Of a stretch of DNA of 64,000 bases, positions 32,737 to 53,923 are shown piece after piece. The stretch lies in contig ML682005.1 in NCBI GenBank assembly GCA_007922195.1, positions 27,391,183 through 27,455,182 on the forward strand. The letters run 5' to 3'. A program made the translations under genes and the position numbers. The DNA is from Podocnemis expansa (lineage: Eukaryota > Chordata > Testudines > Podocnemididae). Positions within the stretch are counted from its first letter, which is position 1. Each line of letters opens with the position of its first letter. The notes below the pieces were generated by a model. The model ran no database searches, was not told the DNA's origin, and saw only the letters and a list, made by a program, of their open reading frames with translations.

Positions 32737-33189
32737 ACCTAAGTTTTTATTCAAGGTACCAAGAGGGAAGGCTGACTGGATTCAGCTTCAAATCAGTGAT
32801 GTAACAGTGGTCAAATTTATATGCTTCTTTATCAGTTACATAAACCATTTGAAATCTTTACCTATTTAATTAGCAGTACAGACTTTGTTCCACTGGAGAG
32901 TACAGAGGTGATAATGACAGATATACGGCTGCCCCTTTGGAACTTGGTTAGATGCAAGGCACTTCAATGACAGATACAGAATATTAATTACATTAAAGAC
33001 CCTATGAATACAATTAGGGCGGGGAATAGGACAGAGAAGAGTTCTTAATGTTAAGCAGGCTGTGTGCCAGAAAGCCTGGGGAATATATTGTTCCCATCTA
33101 AGTCAGGGTTTCTCAATAGACAGCTGGCCACTGCCTTATTGATTGTTTATGGCAGCAGGTAGATGCAATAGAACTGAAAATCAACAGGG

Positions 33190-34612
33190 GAAAGTAGGGC
33201 AATTGGCCCAGTATTTTAGGCACCTGAACATGAATGCGAGGAGCCTGGGAAACAAGCAGGAAGAATTGGCAGTACTGGTGCAGACAAGGAACTATAATAT
33301 AATTGGAATAACAGAGACGTGGGGGGATAGCATGCATGACTGGAGCTCTGTCATGGATGGGTATAAATTGTTCAGGAAGGACAGGCATGGGACAAGAGGG
33401 GGAGGAGTAGTGCTGTATGTAAGAAAGCTCTGTGACTTCTCAGAGCTCCATTATGGAAGTGGAAATGAGCAAGTTGAAAGTCTGTGGATTAAGTTGAGAA
33501 GGGAGGGCAACAAGGGGGATGTCACAGTGGCTGTCTGCTATAGACTGTCAGGCCAGAAAGAAAAGGTGGATGAGGCATTCTATGGACAATTGGCAGAAGT
33601 TTCTAGATCACAGGCTCTGGTTCTCATGGGGGACTTCAATTACCCTGATATTTGCTGGGAGGCCAACACAGCAGTGCACAGGCAAGCCAGGAATTTTTTG
33701 GAGAGCGTGGAGGAGAACTTCTGGTACAAATGTTGGAGGAACCAACTAGGGGCCTTGCACCTGTCGACCTGCTGCTCACAGAGAAGAATTGATCAGGGAA
33801 GTAAAAGTGAATGGCAACTGGGGCACCAGGGACCATGAGAGGGTAGAGTTCAAGATGCTGATTAATGGAAAAAAGAAAAGAAGCAAAAATGCAGACCCTG
33901 GACCTCAGAAAAGCAGATTTTGGCTCCCTCAGGAAACTGATGGGCAGGATCCCTTGGGAGGCTGATCTGAAGGGGAAAGACATCCAAGAAAGCTGCCTGT
34001 ATTTTAAAGAAACCCTGCTAAGGGCACAGGAAGATACCATTCTGATAAGCAAAAAGAACAGCAAACATGGAAGGCGCCCAGTTTGACTTAACAGAGAACT
34101 CTGCAATGAGCTAAAGCATGAAAAAGGAAGCTTACAGGAAGTGGAAGCTTGGACAGATGACTAAGGAGGCATACAGAGATGTTGCTTGGGACTGCAAGGA
34201 TAAAATCAGAAAGGCCAAAGGACAATTGGAGTGGTGGCTAGCAAGGGATGTGAAGGATAACAGGAAGGGGTTCGACAATTATGTCAATAGCAAGATGAGG
34301 ATCAGAGATGGTGTAGGTCCCTTACTCAACGGGGCAGGTATCCTCATGATGGAGGATGTGGAAAAAGCTGAAGTGCTAAATGCTTTTTTTACTTCAGTTT
34401 CCACAGGCAGGGCCAGCTCCCAGCACACTACACTAGGTACGGTAGATTGGAGAGAAGAAGAGAGCCCCTTGGTGATGGAAGGCCAAGTTAGGGACTACTT
34501 AAAGAAGCTGGATGTGCACAAGTCCACTGGGCTGGATGAACAGCATCTGAGGGTGCTGAGGAAGTTGACCAATGAGACAGCATGGGCCATTACCTTTGAA
34601 AACTTGTGGTGA
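33190..34612 (+). pseudogene. CR1 ORF2 endonuclease and linker, frameshifted
   Basis: The first frame (to 33838) has the APE-type endonuclease landmarks in order: N-A-R-S-L-G-N-K, IIGITETW, GYKLFRKDR, RGGGVVLYV, VESLWIKL, VAVCYR and LVLMGDFNYPDICW. The segment to 34086 carries TLDLRKADFGSLRKLMGRIPW in another frame. The part from 34118 to 34612 carries RKAKGQLEWWLARDVKDNRKGF and VGPLLNGAG..MMEDVEKAEVLNAFF. All are in the usual CR1 order. At least three frame changes separate them. Confidence 0.88.
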
Positions 34613-47625: not shown

Positions 47626-47935
47626 CCAGGGTTTACCAGGGTCTCCCTTTTAACGGATGAGAAGCCTCCCAGAACAGACCGACTGTTAATCCTTGGAGAA
47701 TGGGGATATGGATATAGCCTTCCACTCAAAGGCTTGCATCATAGCATTATTTGAAACTAAACTAGGCAAAAAATATATATTAACATGTAAATTTTAAACT
47801 CAAGGTTAAAAATCCAATAATTAGCTATTGTGACGGGGTGGGCCCACCCCGCACTCAAGTGGGCCTATATGCCCGGAAGAGAAGGGAAGCCCTGCCCCTC
47901 AGGCCCTGCTGGGCATGCTCAAACAGCTGCCCAGC

Positions 47936-47942
47936 TATAAAA
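47936..47942 (+). promoter_or_regulatory. TATA box of the Gypsy 5' LTR
   Basis: TATAAAA lies about 107 bp into the LTR, after CCAGC and before GGCTGCG. The same site is present at 53216-53222 in the 3' LTR. It would place the start of the element's RNA near 47965, giving a short U3. Confidence 0.65.
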
Positions 47943-48393
47943 GGCTGCGATTCCCCTCAGTTGGAGGCTGGCCAGCGGAGGGAGCAGACGCAGGCTAGAG
48001 ACTCTCGCTCAGACTCTGGTCTGGCTCCTGCCTCAACGGGATGGACGCCGGGGACGCTAGAGGCATGGAACTCAGAAAGCACTGCTGACCAAGGCGCCCT
48101 CAGCTGTGAGGATCCGAGGACCCCGACTGATCAAGGCACCTGACCAGGTGGACGTCAAGAGTCCAGGTGGGGCACCTCATAACGGCTAGGTAGGAAGTAG
48201 CCCAGGGCTGGGTAAATCGGGGTGAGCATTGGCCAAGTCCAGGCCTCAGTTGGCGCGTTGCGGTTTGGATCCCCGCCGACTGGGCCAGGATTCCCGTACA
48301 CCCCAGGGCCCTGGGCTGGGGTTCAGAGGAGTGGGAGGGCCTGAACCCCCCCACCTGGGCCTACGTCCCTCAGGGCGCCCAGCCGGGACGGGG

Positions 48394-48532
48394 ACTCATT
48401 GACTCTGGCCAGTGGGCCACACTGCCCTGACGTTGAGGGCTGAGACTTATTGACTCTGGCCAGTGGGCCACACTGCCCTGACGTTAAGGGCTGAGACTTA
48501 TTGACTTTAGCCAGCGAGCCATACTGCCCTGC
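48394..48532. repeat. Three-copy internal repeat in the LTR
   Basis: Units built on TTGACTCTGGCCAGTGGGCC, ACACTGCCCTGACGTT and GGGCTGAGACT recur three times; the third is the most diverged (TTTAGCCAGCGAGCC). The same array is in the 3' LTR at about 53674-53814. Confidence 0.85.
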
Positions 48533-48638
48533 CCACAAAGTACCCCGTGGACAGGGTCAGTAACCATAGGGCCATCCGGCCTTAGACCGAGAGCTGCCCG
48601 GCTCAGGAGCACGCGGAGCTAAAACACTCCGTGACACG

Positions 48639-48656
48639 TGGTGGAGAGTGCAGGCA
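48639..48656 (+). promoter_or_regulatory. Primer-binding-site candidate of the Gypsy element
   Basis: Two bases after the 5' LTR the sequence reads TGGTGGAGAGTGCAGGCA. The TGG start fits a tRNA 3' CCA. I cannot assign the tRNA with confidence. Confidence 0.5.
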
Positions 48657-48762
48657 TTCGATCGGACCCCGGAGCAGGGGTCGTAGAAGAGGGGTTATAC
48701 CCCACCCGGGACGTTGTGGTGTTTGAGGGTCGTTTTTTTTTTTGCTTATCTCGCAAGGGACA

Positions 48763-50592
48763 ATGGACACTGAGAAGGTCCTGAAATGGCTGTTGGAGAG
48801 CCAACAACAACAACAGCAGCAGCAACAGCATGTACAGCTGCTTCAGCAGGTGACCTCCCAACAACAAACGCAAGCCTCCCGGCAACAAGAGCAGTTGCAA
48901 CAATTCATGAGGGAGTTAGCTGCCCAACAACAGGCCCACCAGGAGCGGCTGGTCCAGCAGATGGGAGCGACGTTGAAAGCACCCGCCCCTATAAGCCCAG
49001 GGATCGAGGCCTCAGTGACAGGGGTAGGAAGGACCAACCTGCCCTTACAACTGACCAAGATGGGCCCGGGGGATGATCCAGAGGCCTTCTTGGTAACGTT
49101 CGAGCGGGTGGCCACGACGGCACAGTGGGCCCCCGGACACTGGGCTACCGTGTTAGCGCCGTACCTGACGGGACCGGCGCAATTGGCATCTCGAAACCTA
49201 GATCCCCGGGACGCCTTGGTGTACGAGAAAGTCAAGGAGGCAATCATGGGCCAGATGGGGGTGGATACCGAGGCCTACCGCCGACGTTTGCGGGGCACCA
49301 GGTACCCGGCCGACACCCGCCCCCGGGCCATGGCGCAGAAGATTAAAGACGATTGCTGGTGGTGGTTGGAGCCGGAGAGACGGTCGGGACCGGAGGTGGC
49401 GGAACTGGTGGCCCTCGAGCAATTTACATGGGAGCTGCCCTGCGGGTCGAAGGAGTGGGTCCAGCAGCACCGCCCGAAGACCCTAGCGGAGGCGGTTTCA
49501 CTAGCAGAAGACTATATGGCCGCCGAGGCACTGGGGCCCCGCCCATGGAGACAACCCGATACACAAAAAGGGGAACGTAAAAGAGGGTTGGACTCGTCCC
49601 AAACCAAAATAGGGGAAACATCCAGACCCCTTGGCCTGGGCCCCCCAAAACCCGGAGGGGGAGCTTGGAGGCAGCAAGGGGAAGGGGCAGGAAGCCGCCG
49701 GGTGGAGGTCGGCCCCCCTTCCGGAGGGGACCAGCGTAGCGCTGACCGGAAGCACTGTTGGGAGTGCGGAGAGGAAGGTCACTACCGACGAGAATGCCCC
49801 TACATGGAGTGTGAGTATGCACAGGTGGGCGTGGTGGGGCACTGGGCCCGAAAACGAACCGCCCCGAAAATGGTAATACCCGTGAGCGTGGAGGATGCGC
49901 AAGGCCTGGCCCTGATAGACTCGGGATGCAGCCAGATGCTCATTAGGGAGGGTATGATACTGGACCTAGATGTGTTGGGGCCAACCATCCAGCTCCAGTG
50001 CATTCATGGGGATACCCGTCCCTATCCAACCGCCCAAGTCCGGCTGAGGGTTGGACAGCAGACGGCACGACTCCAGGTAGGCGTGGTCCCGAGGTTGGCG
50101 TACCCGGTGGTGTTGGGCCGGGACTGGCCTGGATTCGACGAAGTCCTGAGGAGAGAGGGCCCAAACCCCTCGGGCGTGGCCCCAACGAGCCGCCGCGATG
50201 TAGGTATGTTAGGACGCCAGGGGTCCACAGAGCTGGAAGCAGAGGCGTCGAGGCCTGCAGATGAGCCCCAGAGCCCTGACAAACCCCCCGAGGTGGCCCT
50301 GAGGCAAACACAGGGCGAGTTGGAAAAAGATGGGGACTTCCTCCGCGATCAGCGAGAAGACCCGACATTAAAACACGCCTGGGAGCAGGCTGCCAAACCC
50401 GACGTGGAGCCCTCCAGCAATCAGTCCCGGCCTCAGGGGCCCCACTTTGAGATCAGGGGGGATTGGTTATACCGGGTGACGCATGAACCTCAGACGCAGG
50501 AAGTCATCTACCAACTATTGGTACCCCGGCGTCTGCGGCGAGACATCCTGCACTTGGCCCACGACATCCCCTGGGCCGGGCACCTGGGGTGA
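48763..50592 (+). CDS. Gypsy gag-protease, SCAN-like capsid, ends at a TGA
   Basis: I start at ATG 48763; an in-frame upstream extension uses only a TTG. The product is 609 residues. Residues 14-68 are Gln-rich and probably coiled coil. Residues 103-252 are the capsid; 168-252 show the SCAN pattern: YRRRLR, PRAMAQK, the WWWLEPE turn, LVALEQF (LEQF at 218-221), ELP, WVQQHRP and EAVSLAEDY. A zinc knuckle CX2CX4HX4C is at 332-345. The protease has its catalytic Asp in LIDSG (D386) and a late VLGRDW. The last 45 residues are already the start of integrase (His-rich HDIPWAGHLG), so the TGA at 50590-50592 falls inside the integrase zinc domain rather than at a natural boundary. Confidence 0.9.
   Translation: MDTEKVLKWLLESQQQQQQQQQHVQLLQQVTSQQQTQASRQQEQLQQFMRELAAQQQAHQERLVQQMGATLKAPAPISPGIEASVTGVGRTNLPLQLTKMGPGDDPEAFLVTFERVATTAQWAPGHWATVLAPYLTGPAQLASRNLDPRDALVYEKVKEAIMGQMGVDTEAYRRRLRGTRYPADTRPRAMAQKIKDDCWWWLEPERRSGPEVAELVALEQFTWELPCGSKEWVQQHRPKTLAEAVSLAEDYMAAEALGPRPWRQPDTQKGERKRGLDSSQTKIGETSRPLGLGPPKPGGGAWRQQGEGAGSRRVEVGPPSGGDQRSADRKHCWECGEEGHYRRECPYMECEYAQVGVVGHWARKRTAPKMVIPVSVEDAQGLALIDSGCSQMLIREGMILDLDVLGPTIQLQCIHGDTRPYPTAQVRLRVGQQTARLQVGVVPRLAYPVVLGRDWPGFDEVLRREGPNPSGVAPTSRRDVGMLGRQGSTELEAEASRPADEPQSPDKPPEVALRQTQGELEKDGDFLRDQREDPTLKHAWEQAAKPDVEPSSNQSRPQGPHFEIRGDWLYRVTHEPQTQEVIYQLLVPRRLRRDILHLAHDIPWAGHLG
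50590..50592 (+). other. TGA separating gag-protease from integrase-RT
   Basis: The TGA follows GHLG and precedes EKTLQRV within the integrase zinc domain. Ty3/Gypsy integrases often have Arg or Ile here, so CGA to TGA by CpG decay is the simplest origin. Programmed readthrough is possible but less likely because the stop splits a folded domain. Confidence 0.85.
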
Positions 50593-53113
50593 GAAAAGAC
50601 CCTCCAGAGGGTGGGGCAGCGGTTTTACTGGCCGGGACTCCATAGAGAAGTACGGGATTTCTGCGCATCCTGCCCAGAGTGTCAAAGGACTGGACCAGCA
50701 GGGGTACCACGGGCCCCCCTCGTCCCGATGCCGGTCGTGGGGGTACCCTTTGAACAGATGGGCATGGACCTGGTGGGTCCGCTGGAACAGAGTAAGACGA
50801 AAAACCGTTATATCCTGGTGATGGTAGATTATGCGACTAGGTACCCGGAGGCCGTGCCCCTCCGGACAGCAACGGCGGCAAACATTGCCGGTGAATTGTT
50901 GAAAGTCTTCTCCAGGGTAGGGATCCCAAAAGAAATTCTAACTGATCAAGGTACGAACATCTCCTCAAGACTAATCGGTGAATTGTGTCGGCTGATGGGG
51001 ATAAGATCTCTCAGGACCGCCGTATACCATCCCCAAACAGACGGCCTGGTAGAGCGGTTTAATGGCACCTTAAAGGCCATGTTACGTAAGTTTGTACAAG
51101 AAGACCCCCAGCACTGGGATGCGATACTACCGGCCCTCCTCTTCGCTATAAGGGAAGTCCCGCAGGCCTCCACGGGGTTCTCCCCTTTCGAATTGTTATA
51201 CGGGCGGAGGCCTAGAGGGATATTGGACCTCCTAAGGGAAGACTGGGAGACCCAGGAGACTCGGGTCCAGGGCACGGTACAGTACATAATCAAGCTGCGA
51301 GAGCGGCTGCGTAGCCTGGGAGCTTTCGCCCAGGAAAATTTAAAAAGGGCCCAAGATGTACAGATGCGCCAATATGACCGGGGAACGAAGACCCGGGTGT
51401 TCCAACCTGGGGACAGGGTATTGCTACTCCTCCCCTCAAGCGAGTCTAAGCTACTGGCCAAGTGGCAGGGCCCATTTGAAGTGACCCGGCGGGTCGGCCC
51501 GGTAGACTACGAGGTCCGAATGCCAGGACGCCGAAAAGAAGCCAGAGTTTACCATGTAAACTTATTAAAGCAATGGCGGGATAGAGAGGCCATGTGGGTA
51601 GCCCCGCCTACACCGGAGCCAGACTTCGGGCCCTCAACCGACGAGACCCGGGATGTCGGGTCCCCAACAGTGGGGGATGAGCTGACCCCTGAACAGAAGG
51701 GTCGACTAAGGGAACTTCTGGATCAGTTCCCCGATGTCTTGTCTACCCGCCCAGGGAAGACCCCGCTGACTAGTCATCATGTCGCTACCCTGCCAGGACA
51801 GAAGGTGAGGGACAACCCCCGATCGTTGCCACGAAAGATGTGGTCAACAGTGAGACAGGAGTTGGATAAAATGTTGGAGATGGGAGTCGTAGAGGAATCC
51901 AGGAGCGAGTGGCGAAGCCCCATTGTCCTGGTCCCCAAACCGGATGGCAGCACACGCTTCTGCATAGATTTCAGGAGAGTTAATGCGATTTCCAAATTCG
52001 ACGCCTACCCAATGCCTCGGGTAGATGAATTGCTGGAACGACTGGGCGCGGCGCGGTACCTATCCACGTTGGATCTGACCAAGGGGTATTGGCAGATCCC
52101 TCTCACACCGACATCGCGTCCGAAAACGGCCTTCTCTACCCCATTCGGCCTCTATCAGTTCATCACGATGCCCTTCGGGCTGCACGGAGCGGCCGCCACC
52201 TTCCAAAGGTTGATGAATAAGATGTTGCAACCCCATGAGACCTATGCCGCTGCCTACATCGATGACATTGTGATATACAGTAACAACTGGAACGACCACC
52301 TACAACACCTTAACTGCATCCTGACGGCCCTCCGAGAAGCCCACCTCACGGTAAACCCCGCTAAGTGCCACTTGGGGCAAAGGGAGGTAATCTACCTGGG
52401 GTACATCGTCGGAGGGGGGACGCTGCGGCCATTAATTGAGAAGGTTCAAGCCCTGGCACAGACGCCACGGCCAAGCACTAAAAGACAGGTACGCCAGTTT
52501 TTGGGGCTGGCGAGTTATTACCGCCTCTTTGTACCCGAATTCGCAACCCTCGCAGCCCTGCTGTCGGACCTTACCAAGAACGCGGCCCCCAAGAAAGTTC
52601 AATGGACAGACCAAACAGAAAAGGCGTTCCAGGCATTGAAACACAGCCTGATGCGAGAGCCAGTGCTCGTGCATCCTGATTTTAGCAAGGACTTCATATT
52701 GCAAACGGACGCTTCAGAAGTAGGCCTGGGGGCGGTATTGTCTCAAGAGATTGAGGGGGAGGAACACCCCGTGTTGTATATAAGCAGGAAGTTATTTCCC
52801 AGAGAGACACGTTACTCGACTATTGAAAAGGAGGCTTTGGCTGCGCGATGGGCCATAGATGCGCTCCGCTACTATCTTTTAGGATCTACATTTACCTTAG
52901 TGACTGACCACGCACCCCTAAGGTGGCTGCAGTCCATGAAAGACACGAACCCCCCGACTAATGAGGTGGTACCTGGCCCTCCAACCCTATAACTTCATGG
53001 TGGCACATCGACCAGGTACAAAACATAAGAATGCAGACTTCTTCTCTAGGACAGGAGAAGGAGGGTACAGAGACTGCCCCCGTAAAACCCGTCATAAAGG
53101 GGGGTGTGTGTGA
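50593..53113 (+). pseudogene. Gypsy pol: integrase, RT, RNase H; lesioned
   Basis: The region is in frame with gag-protease after the TGA and has no ATG of its own near the start. Numbering from codon 50611: integrase CASCPEC completes the zinc domain (18-24). The catalytic triad is D53, D112, E148 with D-x35-E spacing. A GPF/GPVDY module (about 285-300) and HVNLLKQW follow. RT has FCIDFRRVN, LDLTKGYWQIPL (D488), TMPFGLHGA and YIDD (549-552). RNase H has QTDAS (D700), STIEKEALA and TDHAPLRW (D766). A C run at 52950-52955 shifts the frame; the last 50 or so codons continue in another frame, keeping the HRPG..H.NAD.FSR ending, and stop at 53111-53113 just inside the 3' LTR. Everything else is open. 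Confidence 0.92.
53096..53104 (+). promoter_or_regulatory. Polypurine tract of the Gypsy element
   Basis: AAAGGGGGG lies 4 nt before the first TG of the 3' LTR and overlaps the end of pol in its shifted frame, as is usual for the plus-strand primer. Confidence 0.75.
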
Positions 53114-53918
53114 TGGGGCGGGCCCACCCCGCACTCAAGGGGGCCTATATGCCCGGAAGAGAAGGGAAGCCCCGCCCCTCAGGCCCTGCTGGGCATGCTC
53201 AAACAGCTGCCCAGCTATAAAAGGCTGCGATTCCCCTCAGTTGGAGGCTGGCCAGTGGAGGGAGCAGACGCAGGCTAGAGGCTCTTGCTCAGACTCTGGT
53301 CTGGCTCCTGCCTCAACGGGACGGATGCCGGGGACGCTAGAGGCATGGAACTCAGAAAGCACTGCTGACCAAGGCGCCCTCAGCCGTGAGGATCCGAGGA
53401 CCCCGACTGATCAAGGCACCTGACCAGGTGGACGTCAAGAGTCCAGGTGGGGCACCTCATAACGGCCAGGTAGGAAGTAGCCCAGGGCTGGGTAAATCGG
53501 GGTGAGCATTGGCCAAGTCCGGGCCTCAGTCGGCGCGTTGCGGCTTGGATCCCCGCCGACTGGGCCAGGATTCCCGTACACCCCAGGGCCCTGGGCTGGG
53601 GTTCAGAGGAGTGGGAGGGCCTGAACCCCCCTACCTGGGCCTACGTCCCTCAGGGCGCCCAGCCGGGACGGGGACTCATTGACTCTGGCCAGTGGGCCAC
53701 ACTGCCCTGACGTTAAGGGCTGAGACTCATTGACTCTCTGGCCAGTGGGCCACACTGCCCTGACGTTAAGGGCTGAGGCTCATTGACTCTAGCCAGCGAG
53801 CCATACCGCCCTGCCCACAAAGTACCCCGTGGACAGGGTCAGTAACCATAGGGCCATCCGGCCTTAGACCGAGAGCTGCCCGGCTCGGGAGCACGTGGAG
53901 CTAAAACACTCCGCGACA
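53109..53918 (+). repeat. Gypsy 3' LTR, 810 bp
   Basis: It starts TGTGATGGGG and ends TCCGCGACA. It differs from the 5' LTR at about 25 sites by eye, nearly all transitions, plus one CT insertion. TATAAAA is at 53216-53222. The exact first base is slightly ambiguous because TGTG is repeated at the junction. Confidence 0.93.
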
Positions 53919-53923
53919 GCTAT

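Follow-up and report, generated by a model that had tools for sequence, protein, structure and literature searches.

Emerson and Thomas are said to have proposed in 2011 that the SCAN domain descends from Gmr1-like capsids. The literature on the closest systems describes a protease-integrase-reverse transcriptase (RT)-RNase H order in Gmr1 that is unusual and Ty1/copia-like (PMC2582038), SCAN domains in more than half of frog Gmr elements (PMC4131045), a double SCAN fold in the Ty3 capsid (PMC6525542) and, among host proteins, an 'extended SCAN' or ESCAN (PMC3406341). In a 2024 survey, the capsid models missed known human SCAN proteins, and none of these models was built for SCAN (PMC11011659). 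The link between SCAN and the capsid is published; the turtle element described here is therefore a fresh example, and the essentials of the origin of SCAN have already been described.

Anatomy and coding capacity of the element

The window, i.e. the whole stretch of DNA analysed, comprises 64,000 nucleotides from Podocnemis expansa. An LTR retrotransposon of 6.1 kb occupies positions 47829-53918 on its forward strand and is flanked by the target-site duplication GCTAT, with its left copy at 47824-47828 and its right copy at 53919-53923. A repeat search delimited the 5' LTR (808 bp, 47829-48636) and the 3' LTR (810 bp, 53109-53918), both with TG...CA ends and 96.8% identical; 784 of 808 aligned bases agree (K2P 0.031), and the differences consist of 23 transitions and one transversion, with 14 of the 24 at CpG. 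A candidate primer-binding site beginning with TGG (48639-48656) is proposed from its position after the 5' LTR, and a polypurine tract (53096-53104) was seen in the sequence just 5' of the 3' LTR. The two LTRs, their TG...CA ends, the target-site duplication and the positions of the primer-binding site and polypurine tract are those of a complete copy. Degenerate tandem copies at a spacing of 51 to 53 bp were observed inside each LTR (48352-48531 and 53632-53813). At the thresholds used, gag, pol and the LTRs had no additional copies in the window. An open frame at 33143-33838 has an endonuclease/exonuclease domain (PF03372, E 3.8e-11) and is probably a LINE retrotransposon fragment.

By translation and Pfam searches, an open frame starting from an ATG at 48763 and extending to 50589 encodes gag, protease and the start of integrase. 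The capsid N-terminal domain (49039-49266) was identified by a fold model and by a purpose-built profile that scored 117 bits and included the window gag among its 41 rows. Downstream of the capsid are a CCHC zinc knuckle (49753-49800; PF00098, just at the cut-off) and an aspartic protease domain (49876-50127; PF13650, E 7.7e-4, below the cut-off). The integrase H2C2 zinc finger (50521-50697) is split by an in-frame stop and was matched by PF17921 in two pieces, covering positions 1-22 (E 0.014, below the cut-off) and 32-58 (E 2.2e-8) of a profile of length 59. A second frame holds the rest of this finger, the integrase core (50746-51033; PF00665, E 3e-11), the integrase C-terminal domain (51469-51570; PF22938, E 5.6e-12), then reverse transcriptase (51931-52410; PF00078, E 1.2e-34) and RNase H (52603-52950; PF17919, and PF17917 over profile positions 1-92 of 105). 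The pol order that the original prediction had regarded as matching Gmr1 is borne out by these Pfam assignments, in which protease is followed by integrase, and integrase lies 5' of the reverse transcriptase and RNase H.

The coding frame is broken at two places. The in-frame stop (50590-50592) lies inside the integrase zinc finger, with the profile matched on both sides. The second break comes at the end of RNase H, where the frame runs into a stop at 52990-52992 and the remaining residues continue in another frame. Gag and pol do not form an open frame, and the present copy is unable to make a full polyprotein. The expectation of a near-intact copy is therefore true of the anatomy of the element and false of its coding capacity, as both breaks are disabling.

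Based on its pol order and SCAN-type capsid, the element would be classed as a Gmr1-like Ty3/Gypsy LTR retrotransposon. Both traits are shared with that class, although the window copy differs from the Gmr1-like elements known before in that it is of turtle type, has its own sequence and is broken.

The SCAN domain of the capsid

The capsid C-terminal domain (CTD) lies at 49264-49518 on the forward strand. When gag is numbered from the ATG at 48763, this segment translates exactly to the 85 residues (168-252) for which a SCAN resemblance had been predicted. The resemblance was upheld by the Pfam SCAN profile (PF02023), which matched the 85-residue piece with an E-value of 1.2e-21 and 76.7 bits (cut-off 27 bits) over profile positions 2-83 of 90, and matched the whole 616-residue frame with an E-value of 5.1e-20. 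Against PDB sequences, phmmer matched the SCAN chains 3lhr (4e-12), 4bhx, 2fi2, 1y7q and 4e6s over residues 168-252. A purpose-built SCAN profile, the seed of which contained the 49264-49518 piece itself, scored the gag frame at 95.7 bits, compared with 10.0 for the best shuffle (871 scored of 1000). The segment is the CTD of the Gag capsid and is identical in domain type to SCAN. No further SCAN match was obtained at E 0.1 in the six-frame translation of the window (1668 open pieces of at least 25 residues), and a pattern scan of the window's six-frame pieces for a C2H2 gene near the element gave no match.

The predicted structure also agreed with a SCAN assignment. When modelled alone as a single chain (49252-49536), the CTD adopted the five-helix SCAN fold, with TM scores of 0.80-0.84 to 3lhr and 4bhx, 0.66 to 2fi2 and 0.73/0.81 to 4e6s. 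In a two-domain model the CTD was capsid-like, and 3lhr could be fitted only at 11.7 Å. The CTD of this second model shares its fold with the retroviral capsid CTD (RSV, MLV, HERV-K and HIV-1) and the Arc C-lobe, but these rows are just 4-17% identical to the window CTD, and phmmer matches to retroviral PDB chains were confined to the zinc-knuckle region, with none over the CTD. Foldseek returned no match to the two-domain model at E <= 0.001, the best being an Arc chain at 0.026. The CTD is predicted to be SCAN-like by itself and retroviral-CTD-like beside the N-terminal domain, a comparison that is confounded; the alignments behind the two models differ (32 versus 30 rows), and SCAN structures may have been among those from which the predictor learned.

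Relatives of the gag and its position in trees

A search with 400 gag residues returned 41 proteins at E <= 1e-3. The six best matches (P0002-P0007) were 39-44% identical and covered 87-100% of the query. Among the 31 matches with an organism name, 29 were from turtles (of the genera Pelodiscus, Pelusios, Chrysemys, Mauremys, Chelydra, Carettochelys, Terrapene and Chelonoidis), one was from a sturgeon and one was a Pogona host protein. A profile search returned 402 proteins, and the best 120 of these include sponge, sturgeon and paddlefish sequences, as well as many 'ena' proteins listed with SCAN; the sturgeon protein P0216 is marked unverified by its source. Of the sponge proteins, P0245 (named Amphimedon) is listed with SCAN and P0264 (Ephydatia) is listed without a SCAN domain. 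P0179, which like other proteins with Em... locus names we take to be from Ephydatia, is above the SCAN cut-off with an E-value of 1.7e-17. The Pfam SCAN cut-off was cleared by all five gag-type proteins run (P0032, P0163, P0168, P0179 and P0252). In P0163 and P0168 gag is followed by integrase, with no RT within the protein; in P0252 it is followed by RT, with no integrase, an order that perhaps reflects a spliced gene model. With a lizard host SCAN as the query, 1680 proteins were found, the best 120 of which come from reptiles and mammals. Transposon fusions of SCAN were also observed, with a HARBI1-like transposase domain in the lizard proteins P0042, P0091-P0093, P0095, P0096 and P0111, and with piggyBac in camel PGBD1 (P0102).

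A tree of the CTD was built from 93 chosen rows and 89 columns, with 33 of 35 turtle-type rows passing the length filter; neither this tree nor the one that follows held a gag known to be from lizard or frog. Hosts formed one clade (100/97), turtle and fish gags another (100/92) and sponge and unnamed gags a third (100/99). Despite this high bootstrap support, none of the four AU tests on the CTD alone gave p < 0.05 when the hosts were joined with the window gag (p 0.156), P0027 (0.238), P0037 (0.160) or turtle gags (0.276), and both capsid domains were therefore used (163 columns, 84 of 164 available rows).

The two-domain tree contains a single host SCAN clade (100/99), a clade of sponge and unnamed gags (100/99) and a separate clade in which turtle gags stand with those of sturgeon and paddlefish (100/96), with the window gag inside the last. 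Taking each AU p as a single-test value, one among several tests, the joining of hosts with the window gag was rejected (p 0.0166), as was that with P0037 (p 0.0154); the value was 0.0177 with fish and 0.053 with P0027, the latter changing to 0.0167 on removal of seven long, partial or near-identical rows after the first result. Joining hosts with turtle gags without fish was not rejected (p 0.164). The window gag has as its nearest neighbour the Pelusios protein P0008, at 65% across 138 columns. The 'turtle' group includes six rows without an organism name (P0002, P0020, P0021, P0029, P0034 and P0035), and P0034, which has a long branch, is placed with fish (83/63) in the two-domain tree. From this tree and the AU tests, the window gag therefore belongs with the turtle gags, deep inside them. 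The phylogeny suggested with the original prediction places the window gag outside the host SCAN/ESCAN clade.

Capture of capsids by zinc-finger genes

The host SCAN and ESCAN zinc-finger proteins carry the same domain as the window gag, accompanied in ESCAN by the capsid N-terminal domain. Host SCAN proteins have C2H2 fingers, whereas the window domain sits in a Gag with a zinc knuckle, protease and pol. With E-values computed on a small local set, the N-terminal domain was present at E <= 1e-5 in 21 of the best 120 (of 1680) host proteins, including turtle P0046 (Pangshura) and tuatara P0160; 20 of these 21 matches were at 1.2e-17 or better, and five more hosts matched weakly (0.0012-0.0029). 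The four mammal rows among the best 120 of 1680 gave no N-terminal-domain match up to E 10. Judged by sequence, the gag N-terminal domain in hosts re-derives the published ESCAN, and in this set it is seen in turtle and tuatara. Both capsid domains are present twice in P0046 (residues 78-239 and 619-795).

We put at about 0.95 the probability that the feature is the capsid CTD of a Gmr1-like Ty3/Gypsy element and that it and host SCAN are one domain through capsid capture. In a working element, Gag capsid subunits, each composed of the N-terminal domain and the SCAN-type CTD, would pack into an RNA-holding particle, within which the CTD would make dimer contacts between neighbouring subunits. 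An ancestral host gene would have captured a capsid of the wider Gmr1-like kind, and it is because of such a capture that the window CTD and host SCAN would be the same domain. A single capture would fit the finding that the sampled hosts all fall into one clade.

A resemblance to SCAN arising by chance or by convergence of helical bundles might be entertained, as middling structural scores come easily to such folds, but it is refuted by the sequence scores of the 49264-49518 domain and its probability is virtually nil. Capture in reverse, by which the element took SCAN from a host zinc-finger gene, would equally account for host SCAN and the window domain being clear homologues, and the direction cannot be read from an unrooted tree alone. 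It is nonetheless extremely improbable: SCAN-scoring gags are present in sponges (P0245 and P0179), the best 120 of 1680 host-SCAN matches are confined to reptiles and mammals (albeit that such a list favours near relatives), and the N-terminal domain carried by 21 of those 120 hosts is expected if a whole capsid was taken. Among vertebrate Gmr1-like gags, the window lineage could be singled out as the survivor of the lineage that donated host SCAN, but this is very unlikely. The CTD-only tree allows it, and turtle gags can be joined with hosts without fish on either data set, but the two-domain AU test opposes it (p 0.017, one among several tests), as do the single clade of sampled hosts and the depth of the window gag within the turtle gags. 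The element had been described as a direct living relative of the donor type, which holds insofar as its gag belongs to the group to which the origin of SCAN is attributed; special closeness to hosts is unsupported because the sampled hosts form one separate clade and their union with the window gag is rejected when both capsid domains are used. On the sequences compared, the element is a relative of the donor type and not demonstrably the donor lineage.

Two turtle gene models raise the question of whether zinc-finger genes of the SCAN type arose on more than one occasion, with turtles fusing younger Gmr1-like capsids to C2H2 fingers, in one case with KRAB. In P0027 (Chelydra), residues 1-214 match the turtle gag P0015 at 63% and are followed by C2H2 fingers; P0037 (Chelonoidis) has a partial N-terminal domain (profile 36-78) and SCAN, followed by KRAB and fingers. 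The capsid parts of both group inside the turtle gags and not with host SCANs, and this tree position, together with the open gag part, favours a second capture. However, both are uncharacterised predictions in UniRef, the first finger of P0027, inspected by eye, has no cysteine pair where the two parts meet, and the SCAN of P0037 is truncated, its match stopping at profile position 62 of 90. A second capture is therefore doubtful, and chimerism of the gene models is the more likely explanation of P0027 and P0037. Among the papers listed by literature searches, judged from titles and the starts of abstracts, none was recognised as reporting SCAN capture in turtles.

SCAN ranks among the large dimerisation domains found in amniote transcription factors, and turtle gags of the type described here are diverse. 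The Podocnemis element, with both LTRs and all domains recognisable, clearly illustrates the type of capsid that lies behind SCAN. It makes testable both the recurrence of capsid capture by zinc-finger genes and the changes that turned a capsid CTD into a free-standing swapped dimer.
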